Shown here: in pieces, positions 12,362-16,544 of the stretch | Position numbering within the stretch: the first letter of the stretch is position 1 | How the letters are laid out: the number at the start of each line of letters is the position of its first letter | Assembly: GCA_905479565.1 (NCBI GenBank) | Contig: CAJQMY010000018.1 | Coordinates: 1-64,000, forward strand | DNA from: an uncultured Candidatus Nitrosopumilus sp. | GTDB taxonomy: Archaea; Thermoproteota; Nitrososphaeria; Nitrososphaerales; Nitrosopumilaceae | Direction: 5' to 3' | DNA: 64,000 bases | Translations under genes and position numbers: made by a program | Notes under the pieces: model-generated | Told to the model about the DNA's origin: nothing | Seen by the model: the letters and a program-made list of their open reading frames with translations, nothing else | The model's database searches: none

Positions 12362-12883
12362 ATGGCTAAAGAGCGATCAGTTTTCTTGATCTTTATTTTG
12401 ATTTTTTCATCATTTTCAGGAATCAGTTCGGCATATGGGCATTCTATGTTCAATTCTGCTGAGCAATCAATAGGGGGTTACAGAGTTCAAGTGGCCACAG
12501 CACCAGAATTTCCACAAATTGATGAACCCTCACAATTTCTTATCAAAGTGACAAAGGGGTTTGATTATGATGAAGTCAAAGATTTTACTATGGGAATCAG
12601 GGTTTATTACAATGAACAACAGGTAGATGCAATTCCTCCAACATCAGTAAAAGGTTCCCATTGGGATTTTGATTATGTTTGGAAAAATATAGGAAATCAC
12701 ATTGTTAGGGTTGATTTGTACGACATGGACAATGCTGATGAGGTTTTAACATATACATTTAACATGGGAACACAAAGTCCATTTGGATTTTTATTTATTG
12801 GTGCAATTACCACAGGTGCTTTTGTATTTGTAGGGGTAATGTTGTATATTTATTTACCAAAAATATTAAAAAAATCTAAGTAG
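12362..12883 (+). CDS. Exported membrane-anchored protein near oxidase operon
   Basis: A signal peptide (residues 1-26, ending in SAYG), a beta-rich extracytoplasmic domain (VQVATAPEFPQIDEPSQFLI; then DVDLY-like strands), and a C-terminal helix (residues 143-165) with a basic tail. This is the layout of a surface domain held by one helix. It may be YtkA/CopC-like and linked to copper delivery for the oxidase, but no clear copper ligands are seen. Its end overlaps the end of the convergent ctaA gene by 8 bases. Confidence 0.65.
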   Translation: MAKERSVFLIFILIFSSFSGISSAYGHSMFNSAEQSIGGYRVQVATAPEFPQIDEPSQFLIKVTKGFDYDEVKDFTMGIRVYYNEQQVDAIPPTSVKGSHWDFDYVWKNIGNHIVRVDLYDMDNADEVLTYTFNMGTQSPFGFLFIGAITTGAFVFVGVMLYIYLPKILKKSK

Positions 12884-13316
12884 CAGATTTTGGAGATTTT
12901 GTAATTCTAAATGCAAATAACACAGTTAGTAATACCATAGCAAATAACCAAATTCCAATTCCTAAGTGAATTGCAACTAATACTGCGTGAAGTTTTGTGT
13001 CAATTACTAAAGCGCCTAAGGTAATTTGAGTAATTACTAAACCAGTTGCAAGTGAGCTTGTAATTTTAATTTTTAAATCAGAATTCTTGTTAACAAGACT
13101 TGCAACCATAGTTGCAATTACTAATACTCCAGTGGTTGCAGCAGTTGTTCTATGAATCCATTCAACAAGATATTCTTCAGAAGGCATCACTCCATTAGGA
13201 CATAGTGGCCATTCAGGACAAGTTAATCCAAGTCCAGCCGCTGAAATATATCCACCAATAAACATCAATGAATACAAAACAATTAATGTTGTTAATGCAA
13301 GATATTGAATTGCCAA
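12876..13316 (-). CDS. ctaA: Half-size heme A synthase (CtaA/Cox15 family)
   Basis: This enzyme oxidises a methyl group of heme O to make heme A for the terminal oxidase. The protein has four helices, with LGLTCPEWPLCPNG after helix 1 (the conserved Cys pair) and EWIHRTTAAT in helix 2 (catalytic Glu and a heme His); a second His pair lies in LHAVLVAIHLG. Bacterial CtaA has eight helices from two such halves. Four-helix archaeal forms are known and would need to dimerise. It is the last gene of the oxidase operon. Confidence 0.85.
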   Translation of the reverse strand: MAIQYLALTTLIVLYSLMFIGGYISAAGLGLTCPEWPLCPNGVMPSEEYLVEWIHRTTAATTGVLVIATMVASLVNKNSDLKIKITSSLATGLVITQITLGALVIDTKLHAVLVAIHLGIGIWLFAMVLLTVLFAFRITKSPKSAT

Positions 13317-13328
13317 AATTATTCGATT

Positions 13329-14261
13329 CTAATTTACCGTAATGTTACCAATCATCCAAGGATGAACCATGCAATAGTAAGGATATTCACCAGATTCGTC
13401 GAGAGTTACAGAGAATGTGTCGCCTGCCGTAAATATGCTACTATCAAAGATTCCATCAGGAGCTCCCGGTAATCCACTTGTAACTGTGTGAGCTGCAGAA
13501 TCATCATTTGACCAAGTAATTTCTTCACCTGATGAGACTGTAACATGATATGGGATATAGCATTCATACGTAGCATCACATCCAGGAACTCCAGAACCTT
13601 GTGGGAGAGATATTGGACCGTCATATGCTACAGGTTCTGGTGTCATTACTTCTTCCGCTACAGGTTCTGGTACAGCCTCCATTACCTTTTCTTCAATTGA
13701 AGCATTTCCTACAACGATTTTACCCACCATTCCTTGTTCTCTATGACCTGGAACTGTACAAATATAATAATAAACTCCATCTTCGCCTGCAATAAATTCA
13801 GAAGTTCCACTCTCACCTGCTTTTAGAGGATTTGATGCAGTTGCAATTTCACTACCTGGAATAATCCCTCCAAAACCTTCATCATCCGAAGTAACACCAA
13901 AAGAATGGAACGATACACCGGCATTAATTACATCAAAGACAATTTTGTCTCCAACTTCCATATTAATAGTTGGATTGTTATCTGATTCCCCAGGTAATGC
14001 ATTAAATGCCAAAGTCCTAAAGTCAGACGACTCTACAAACGAAAGAGCTGAATTGATAGTAGCACCTGTATGCACGGCTGCTTCACCACGATCATCGCCA
14101 CCTGCCATCATTGCCACAACTGGGGCGGGTTCTGATATCCAATAATCCCACATTCCAAAGAAGATTGCTCCACCAACAATGCAAATACCTAACATGATTA
14201 TCATCATTTTTCCAGTTCTAGCTGGAGTTGTTCGGTAAACTTGGGAATTATCGTGACTCAT
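13329..14261 (-). CDS. Membrane-anchored protein with two cupredoxin domains
   Basis: An N-terminal helix (residues 18-40) anchors two blue copper domains outside the cell. Domain 1 (about 85-190) has CTVPGHREQGM, giving Cys, His and Met ligands. Domain 2 (about 225-310) has AAHTVTSG and CMVHPWM. A Pro/Glu/Val-rich linker joins them. The gene sits between oxidase subunit I and CtaA with spacing of about 12 bases, so it is probably a bound electron donor to the oxidase that replaces cytochrome c; this follows from the context and from the scarcity of c-type cytochromes in thaumarchaea. Confidence 0.85.
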   Translation of the reverse strand: MSHDNSQVYRTTPARTGKMMIIMLGICIVGGAIFFGMWDYWISEPAPVVAMMAGGDDRGEAAVHTGATINSALSFVESSDFRTLAFNALPGESDNNPTINMEVGDKIVFDVINAGVSFHSFGVTSDDEGFGGIIPGSEIATASNPLKAGESGTSEFIAGEDGVYYYICTVPGHREQGMVGKIVVGNASIEEKVMEAVPEPVAEEVMTPEPVAYDGPISLPQGSGVPGCDATYECYIPYHVTVSSGEEITWSNDDSAAHTVTSGLPGAPDGIFDSSIFTAGDTFSVTLDESGEYPYYCMVHPWMIGNITVN

Positions 14262-14273
14262 TTCATATATCTC

Positions 14274-15800
14274 CTAATGTGATGGATTCTTTGCCTCAAA
14301 CGGATAATAGTATTTCCCACCGATTCCAAATGGATCTTCGGTATTTGCAAGTTTTCCTTTTCCGGAACTGTAAATCATGTTTGCTAAAAAGATTGCCATA
14401 CTGACACCAATAATCATTGCTCCTACTGTTGCAATTTGGTTCATAGCAATCCATTCTGGGATTGGCGGATAATCGAAAATTCTTCTTGGCATTCCATACA
14501 GGCCAAGTACGTGTTGTGTAAAGAATACTAGAACAGTCCCTACAAATGACATTATAAAATGAACTTTACCCATTGTTTCATTATACATTCTACCAGTTAC
14601 ATATGGGAACATGTAGTATAGATAACCAATTGAACCAAATGCGATTGTACCCATCACAAAGAGATGGAAGTGACCTACTACCCAGTATGTATCGTGTGTT
14701 GTAAAGTCCAATGGCATGGCAGCATTTGCAACACCACCTGCACCTGCAGAGAAGAATAGTGCAATACCACCAACTGCCCACATCATTGGAGTTGAGAATT
14801 TGATTCTACCATTCCACATTGTTGCAACAAAGTTGAATACGTGCATAGCAGATGCTGGAACTGCTGCAAGGGTTCCTACCATAAATACAGTTTTTTCAGT
14901 AAATGACATTCCGGTTGCGTACATGTGGTGTGCCCATGATGAGAAACCGACAATAGATAGCAAAACAAATGCAAAGACACCAGAGTTGTAGCTGTAAATC
15001 GGTTTTCTTGAAAACCTTGGAATGATTTCATACATCATACCAATTGCAGGGATTACCAATACATACACTTCAGGATGGAACGTAAACCAAAACAAGTGGG
15101 CATAAGCAATTGGATCTCCTCCCATTGCAGGATTGAAAAATCCACTTACACCAAGTCTGTCAGTTAACAACATCAAAAGTGCTGCTGCAAATGTTGGAAT
15201 TGCAACAAGTATAATCAAAGATGATGATAAGAAAGACCATGCTAATAATGGAACCTGGCCAATTGACATGTCAGGATGTTTACATTTTAGAATTGTAACT
15301 ACAAAATTAATTGCACCAAGGACTGATGAAATACCTAAGATTTTTAATCCAAATATCCACATATCTGCAGCAGGACCAGGAGCACTGATGATAGAGTATG
15401 GCGGTGTCGCATACCAAGTAAAATCTGCAAATCCTAACCAAATGAGTGCTCCAGCTGGAGGAATCATCCAAAATGCAATTGCATTAAGTTTTGGATAAGC
15501 CATGTCTTTGTATCTAACCATAATTGGAACATAGTAGTTACCAACTGCAGATGCAAACGGAATGATAAACAAGAAAATTAACGTTGTACCGTGAACCGTA
15601 AAAATTCTATTAAACGTCATAGCATCACCAATAATTTGTGCACCAGGTAAGAACAATTCTGCTCTAATTGCAAGAGCCAAAGAACCACCTAAGAACAAAA
15701 ATGCTAGGGACGAAATTAGATAGAGCAAACCAACATCAGTATGATGTGTTGAGAACATTATTTGCCAAATTGGACGTGGCTTTTGTAATTCTAGAACCAT
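14274..15800 (-). CDS. coxA: Heme-copper oxidase subunit I (A type)
   Basis: The catalytic subunit of the terminal oxidase, which reduces O2 to water and pumps protons. It has 12 hydrophobic segments in 508 aa. Key sites are TVHGTT (low-spin heme His), FTFHPEVYVLVIP (CuB His and the His-Tyr cross-link pair of A-type enzymes), WAHHMYATG (two CuB His) and YWVVGHFHLF (heme His ligands). The HPEVY motif separates it from B-, C- and nitric-oxide-reductase types. It lies within a five-gene operon. Confidence 0.95.
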   Translation of the reverse strand: MVLELQKPRPIWQIMFSTHHTDVGLLYLISSLAFLFLGGSLALAIRAELFLPGAQIIGDAMTFNRIFTVHGTTLIFLFIIPFASAVGNYYVPIMVRYKDMAYPKLNAIAFWMIPPAGALIWLGFADFTWYATPPYSIISAPGPAADMWIFGLKILGISSVLGAINFVVTILKCKHPDMSIGQVPLLAWSFLSSSLIILVAIPTFAAALLMLLTDRLGVSGFFNPAMGGDPIAYAHLFWFTFHPEVYVLVIPAIGMMYEIIPRFSRKPIYSYNSGVFAFVLLSIVGFSSWAHHMYATGMSFTEKTVFMVGTLAAVPASAMHVFNFVATMWNGRIKFSTPMMWAVGGIALFFSAGAGGVANAAMPLDFTTHDTYWVVGHFHLFVMGTIAFGSIGYLYYMFPYVTGRMYNETMGKVHFIMSFVGTVLVFFTQHVLGLYGMPRRIFDYPPIPEWIAMNQIATVGAMIIGVSMAIFLANMIYSSGKGKLANTEDPFGIGGKYYYPFEAKNPSH

Positions 15801-15849: not shown

Positions 15850-16281
15850 TCAAGCTTTTGGATCCTCCACAATTAAAGTTCCACGCATATTATAGTGAAT
15901 TAGACCACAGTACTCTCTACATTGAATATCATGAGTTCCTACATCAGTTGGAGCAAACCATACAGTATTTACTCTACCAGGAATTGCATCCATCAAAACA
16001 ACATAATCGTGAATATTAAAAGCATGATTAACATCTTTAGAATGGATTTCAAACTTGTAAGCCTTGCCTACTTCTACATGCAATTCTCCAATCTCTTTAG
16101 TTCCATCTTCGTGTTCAAAAGTCCAGAACCACTGTTGTCCTGTTACAATAATTGTTTTGGCATCCTCTGGAACATGTTCCACAAGTCTTTCTGCTTCCCA
16201 AGCTTCTGCTCCTACCCAAACCATTAGAGCCACTACAACACCAATGTAAACCCATTCTGGCCAGTTAGAGTGTCCGCTCAT
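15850..16281 (-). CDS. coxB: Oxidase subunit II, second helix plus CuA domain
   Basis: One helix (residues 9-27) is followed by the CuA cupredoxin. GQQWFWTFEHEDG is the entry strand, DVNHAFNIHDY supplies a copper His, and CREYCGLIHYNM supplies two Cys, His and Met of the CuA site. A normal subunit II has two helices before this domain; here only one is present, and the missing first helix appears to be encoded by the gene just upstream (16284-16544), 2 bases away. CuA accepts electrons from the blue copper donor. Confidence 0.92.
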   Translation of the reverse strand: MSGHSNWPEWVYIGVVVALMVWVGAEAWEAERLVEHVPEDAKTIIVTGQQWFWTFEHEDGTKEIGELHVEVGKAYKFEIHSKDVNHAFNIHDYVVLMDAIPGRVNTVWFAPTDVGTHDIQCREYCGLIHYNMRGTLIVEDPKA

Positions 16282-16283
16282 TA

Positions 16284-16544
16284 TTACCAGTCCGTGCCCT
16301 CATATGGAGTGGGTTTGGCTTTTGGATGAGATTCTCTAAATCTCCAACATTGCCAAATCATTGTTCCAGATACTACTGCACCCACAGTAAATCCAACTGT
16401 CATTAATCTATAAAATAAATTCCAAATAACCACTCTACGATCAAGATATTCTCCTGGTTCATCACCTGCAGCAAATACTAAGTCTACAGCTGGCACTATC
16501 ATCAAAACTGCCAATACTAAGAATAATCCAACGAATTTCTTCAT
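16284..16544 (-). CDS. Small oxidase protein, likely the detached first helix of subunit II
   Basis: An 86-aa protein with a cleavable signal (residues 1-26, ending in VFA) and one helix (about 43-65, ending in IWQCWRFRESHPKAKP). The pattern of hydrophobic helix followed by a W-R-F-R-E basic edge is that of the first membrane helix of oxidase subunit II, including the usual export signal before it. It is the first gene of the oxidase operon and is directly followed by the one-helix CuA protein. The split is inferred from layout and motif. Confidence 0.75.
   Translation of the reverse strand: MKKFVGLFLVLAVLMIVPAVDLVFAAGDEPGEYLDRRVVIWNLFYRLMTVGFTVGAVVSGTMIWQCWRFRESHPKAKPTPYEGTDW

Follow-up and report, generated by a model that had tools for sequence, protein, structure and literature searches.

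The window analysed here is a stretch of 64,000 nucleotides from an uncultured Candidatus Nitrosopumilus sp. (contig CAJQMY010000018.1), and its minus strand carries a run of five genes encoding an 86-aa protein (16284..16544), a CuA protein of 143 aa (15850..16281), subunit I of a terminal oxidase (CoxA, 508 aa; 14274..15800), a double cupredoxin/plastocyanin of 310 aa that is the likely electron donor (13329..14261), and a short CtaA-like haem A synthase of 146 aa (12876..13316; PF02628, 6.8e-17). Subunit I is of the A-type, as it displays the helix VI motif HPEVY and matches TIGR02891 at 1.9e-154, though under that model's cut-off, and it lacks a COX3 part. Half-size haem A synthases occur in archaea, and the CtaA-like protein (12876-13316 (-)) covers only positions 73-170 of 322 in PF02628. 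In addition, a 173-aa protein on the opposite strand (12362-12883 (+)) faces the oxidase cluster and displays a signal-like start and a C-terminal helix, while Pfam and NCBIfam scans returned no notable family match for it.

The original prediction held that subunit II of this oxidase is split into a helix-1 protein and a helix-2/CuA protein, and both frames display the features it described. The 86-aa protein, SoxI-like by homology searches and profiles, begins with a signal-peptide-like N terminus (residues 1-25; 16470..16544, minus strand) with an AxA-like cut site recognised by eye (DLVFA/AGDEP), followed by a single membrane helix (residues 41-67; 16344..16424, minus strand) assigned to helix 1 of subunit II by its CoxB match and by profiles. 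The helix ends in a W67-R-F-R-E71 edge (16332..16346, minus strand) expected on the cytoplasmic side, and the flanking charges, two positive and four negative before the helix and two positive and one negative after it, show a weak bias. The frame ends in TGG-TAA, and the two bases TA separate this stop from the ATG of the CuA frame. The CuA protein, SoxH-like by family matches and AlphaFold, contains one hydrophobic membrane helix, on which hydropathy and AlphaFold agree, instead of the two in one chain that define CoxB; with its CoxB match, this helix (residues 10-29; 16195..16254, minus strand) corresponds to helix 2. The complete ligand set is present (H86, C121-x-E-x-C125 with E123, H129 and M132), residues that we take to have the usual CuA ligand roles, and most of it lies in the stretch CREYCGLIHYNM (residues 121-132; 15886..15921, minus strand). 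The protein matches PF00116 at 4.3e-14, and its AlphaFold model, of modest quality with a mean pLDDT of 69, places a helix at residues 8-31 followed by strands. Using this model, Foldseek returned mostly subunit II chains as best matches, at E 9e-4 or weaker.

The genome of origin (1.42 Mb, 64 contigs, 95% complete) contains one archaeal amoA, one COX1, and one COX2, and its amoA marks it as that of an ammonia oxidiser. A second subunit II was not found in this 95%-complete genome, and neither was an intact two-helix one, which would speak against the split; COX3 had no match there, although subunit I is A-type and unfused.

Two-helix CoxB as modelled by TIGR02866 is a single chain, and here both halves align to it in order as two chains. 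Residues 40-81 of the small protein match model positions 9-50 (E 0.0017, 17.9 bits) and residues 10-140 of the CuA protein match positions 60-193 (E 2e-28, 99.3 bits), each half scoring below the cut-off of 147.7 bits. The break falls between positions 50 and 60, that is, between the helices, and the joint order is that of a normal subunit II, as had been anticipated. Positions 2-47 of this model are covered by four related small proteins, of which two from ammonia oxidisers reach E-values of 2e-4 and 0.0036, one from a Pyrobaculum-like archaeon 0.0081, and one from a marine heterotroph 0.054. These modest values for single proteins reflect that only one helix is compared. No TIGR02866 match was obtained for SoxI, for the small proteins of families f8 and f35, or for the one B-type subunit IIa scanned; the f35 protein matches another subunit II model, NF050117, at E 0.0063. 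The Pfam model COX2_TM does not reach the 86-aa protein of the window. SoxI has no meaningful Pfam or NCBIfam match and the f8 small protein no family match of its own, and both join the small-protein family through profiles only.

Searches with whole families extend this picture. Using phmmer, the small protein of the window recovered two-helix subunit II proteins among the ORFs of related loci (L053, L059, and L062; E 1.5e-4 to 1.9e-3), and these were matched by the CuA query too. In hhalign, where the E-values stand for single comparisons of alignments chosen by us, the small family aligned with the N termini of fused subunit II at a probability of 96.7 (E 4e-10), the small proteins from outside the ammonia oxidisers did so at 91.1 (1e-6), and the ammonia-oxidiser family aligned with the other small family, which contains SoxI, at 93.9 (1.5e-7). 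Specificity was assessed by running both small-family profiles against 13,895 distinct ORFs of at least 40 aa from the collected loci. Below E 0.1, everything that the ammonia-oxidiser profile retrieved was either a small protein, from one family or the other, or helix 1 of a two-helix subunit II, with more than a dozen fused proteins ranking above the first unrelated match, which appeared at E 0.14 among the 13,895 ORFs (0.19 for the other profile). In every two-helix protein, the matched stretch was the helix directly before helix 2 and the CuA domain. A six-frame search of 152 whole genomes, using a profile built without any ammonia oxidiser, gave this gene as the best match in 23 of 23 f1 genomes at E 3.7e-7 to 0.034 (0.008 in the genome of origin), although the 23 genes are orthologues and the individual scores are weak; the weight of this result lies in the constant place of the match, because chance matches of similar size occur in other genomes. 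Among solved structures, the small protein alone gave no useful match and profile A2 none, while the best match of profile A1 was helix 1 of Thermus caa3 subunit II (E 0.088). Together, the collinear CoxB matches, the hhalign match to the N terminus of two-helix subunit II, and the specificity among the 13,895 ORFs support the reading that the small protein is probably helix 1 of subunit II, by its sequence and not by gene layout alone, and it would then sit at the helix-1 site in the complex.

The two genes also travel together. Of 300 genomes of the class, 199 yielded the small protein and 238 yielded COX2, and by comparing the listings by eye, 198 of the 200 genomes of families f1, f2, f3, and f5 with either gene have both, a pairing that exceeds chance. 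The exceptions with one gene only, G298 and G210, are drafts of hundreds of contigs, and a second COX2 match occurs in nine genomes of these four families. The fetched loci contain 48 distinct pairs of the kind seen in ammonia oxidisers, each adjacent and with the small gene first. The gap between them is 2 nt in 34 pairs, -1 in seven, 0 in four, and -7, 3, and 15 once each, and the frame offset is 2 in 42 pairs and 0 in six.

The original prediction raised the question of whether all thaumarchaea have the split; it is neither universal among them nor particular to them. Many relatives that do not oxidise ammonia carry a normal two-helix subunit II of ~190-270 aa, and their complete loci show CoxA-COX3 fusions. 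A confinement of the split to ammonia oxidisers was likewise rejected, as other lineages, to which names were assigned by inference from gene content and papers, encode a small protein with two helices, in frames of 82-110 aa, beside a CuA protein with one helix and a subunit I of the A-type. These include marine heterotrophic thaumarchaea (L087-L092, with YSHPAVY where subunit I is present in the record), the f8 genome G189 (L058), f35 (L199-L202, L239, and L243), the Pyrobaculum-like f31 (L211, L222-L224, and L242), in which subunit I is fused to COX3, and f66 (L240; in L241, the contig stops before any CuA gene). In the other lineages, a first helix that looks uncleaved takes the place of the signal peptide of the ammonia oxidisers. 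The split also occurs in Sulfolobales: in a locus of the Sulfolobales-like f40 (L219), genes for a Rieske protein, cytochrome b, a CuA protein, and a 148-aa protein follow each other, and the N-terminal part of the 148-aa protein belongs to the small-protein family. This cluster is soxF-G-H-I, and CuA and SoxI-like genes are adjacent in L244 and L245 too. In the available part of PMC7820114, soxI (Sso2968), soxG (Sso2970), and soxF (Sso2971) are placed within the SoxM cluster. At a cut-off of 1e-8, which excludes ammonia oxidisers, the profile of the other small proteins had matches in 29 of the 398 genomes from the phylum, which belong without exception to f31, f35, f40, and f66. Taken more widely, helix 1 probably forms a subunit of its own, of the SoxI type, throughout one branch of archaeal A-type oxidases.

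Small accessory subunits with a single helix are found in many oxidases, and it could be argued that the 86-aa protein is one of these, or an assembly factor, with no relation to subunit II and with one helix and a basic edge by chance, for which the modest single-sequence E-values leave some room. This is improbable, as phmmer, TIGR02866, hhalign, and the profile search of the 13,895 ORFs all return matches specific to helix 1, and the CuA protein lacks precisely that part wherever the small gene occurs. A closer relative in layout is subunit IIa of B-type (ba3) oxidases, in which a separate helix occupies the place of A-type helix 1 next to a one-helix subunit II, and a small protein of this kind would lie at the helix-1 site in opposite polarity and without common descent (PMC3141039 and PMC3128077, each in its available part). 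As far as accessible, PMC3141039 describes the IIa helix as inverted, and PMC3128077 gives it the opposite polarity and no sequence similarity to the A-type or B-type membrane segment. The genomic position and the one-helix CuA partner are the same as described in the latter, yet subunit I is A-type with HPEVY, the helix is homologous to helix 1, and the signal peptide and basic C-terminal edge point to normal polarity, by rule. Moreover, the f31 genomes G320 and G355 carry both kinds of small protein, a IIa of 39-41 aa with a B-type oxidase and a small protein with a frame of 85-86 aa with an A-type oxidase. Together with the scanned IIa lacking a CoxB match, these differences make the IIa reading highly improbable.

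Since the two genes lie 2 bases apart, they might also be read as two frames joined by a frameshift, stop readthrough, or a sequencing error. The gaps and frame offsets vary among the 48 pairs, which in practice excludes a conserved frameshift or readthrough, and in the Sulfolobales operon soxI comes after soxH, so that no readthrough could put helix 1 before helix 2. A joined product was rejected on these two grounds, and we give it next to no credence. The preferred reading is a subunit II made as two separate chains.

The subunit I tree comprises 64 rows, 24 split and 40 fused, with the SoxM row L210 scored as split because soxH and soxI were found about 4 kb away. On this COX1 tree, the trait needs one change, with a branch support of 100/99, a result shared by each of the 200 bootstrap trees examined; one change likewise sufficed in an earlier tree from which the f35, f31, and Sulfolobales rows were absent. 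As in the available part of PMC3512248, SoxM is sister to Pyrobaculum CoxAC. Two genomes, G189 (L058 and L167) and G366 (L199 and L214), each contain one split and one fused A-type oxidase, located on opposite sides of the change. Among the bacterial A-type relatives included in the tree, at least two helices precede the CuA domain, except in L120, to which the hydropathy rule assigns one. It is thus well supported that a single event, fission or fusion, separates split from fused. With a B-type outgroup, the fused rows nest within the split rows in the best tree (88/99), and the alternative of the split rows as a single clade has a p-AU of 0.098, which does not reach rejection. This rooting is not decisive, and the outgroup branches that meet there are long. 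It could be speculated, as a tentative and rather doubtful proposal, that the split is the original A-type state, kept by archaea, and that a single fusion of a SoxI-like and a SoxH-like gene gave rise to the two-helix form known from bacteria and mitochondria. For B-type subunit II and IIa, fission between the two helices, or fusion, is proposed in the accessible part of PMC3128077. As the split and the whole form lie across one branch, the direction of the change is testable and bears on the origins of A-type oxidases.

The known system closest to the locus is SoxM. In both, a one-helix CuA protein is combined with a separate helix-1 protein of one family, and the A-type subunits I fall on the same side of the single change. 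SoxI is reportedly present in the purified SoxM complex, in work from 2002 attributed to Komorowski. Unlike the 86-aa protein, SoxI has a first helix that looks uncleaved and extra C-terminal helices, and the SoxM system also differs in that soxI follows soxH in L219 and subunit I is fused to COX3. We consider it very probable that the oxidase has a two-chain subunit II, in which a secreted helix 1 pairs with helix 2 beside subunit I, the same arrangement as SoxI with SoxH in SoxM. The small protein would be exported via Sec, lose its signal peptide, and be kept in the membrane as helix 1, with the N terminus outside and W-R-F-R-E on the cytoplasmic side. Helix 2 and the CuA domain would come from the second gene, with the N terminus inside and the CuA domain outside, a predicted topology equal to that of a normal subunit II cut within the cytoplasmic loop. 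The near-overlap of the genes suggests coupled translation, which may yield roughly equal amounts of both chains, and the two helices would pair beside subunit I like the hairpin of a normal subunit II. CuA would then accept electrons from plastocyanin, the likely donor being the double cupredoxin encoded nearby, and hand them to haem a.

A subunit II encoded by two complementary genes is also seen in COX2A/COX2B of green algae, alveolates, and Campsomeris wasps, but COX2A of these eukaryotes contains both helices and the break lies in the soluble part (PMC5374615, available part), whereas here it lies between the helices. No description was found of an A-type subunit II split between its helices, or of SoxI as helix 1, in a search with the primary SoxM paper and most subscription papers outside its range; if the SoxM biochemistry paper already has SoxI as helix 1 of subunit II, this part is already known. 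In its accessible part, PMC10030591 describes a coxB of Nitrososphaera viennensis with one helix, lists no helix-1 partner by that name, and names NVIE_027520, for which one helix is listed, and NCAV_1587 as oxidase subunits, which may or may not be counterparts of the small protein. In the accessible sections of a BN-PAGE study where coxA and coxB were seen, no such small subunit is named. The available parts of two further sources describe the oxidase of marine heterotrophs as three-subunit and A2-like (PMC7300363) and treat coxAB of the class without mention of a split (PMC10833072). The present reading would identify the helix so far lacking from the terminal oxidase of an archaeal group that is among the commonest, and give SoxI, for which no family model was found, a definite role. 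Counts of two or three subunits for the oxidases of these archaea would be one gene short, and the locus would offer a clear example of a core respiratory subunit found split on one side of a single branch and whole on the other.

Finally, two further observations concern CuA proteins elsewhere in the class. In the Nitrososphaeraceae-like f3, CuA proteins carry a C-terminal plastocyanin-like domain (L046, 3596-4580; L048, 3529-4351 (-); L049, 3555-4395 (-)), so subunit II may include a fused electron donor there. In marine heterotrophic thaumarchaea (L075, L076, L079, and L080), a second CuA-like match, in a 123-aa frame, is located on another contig.
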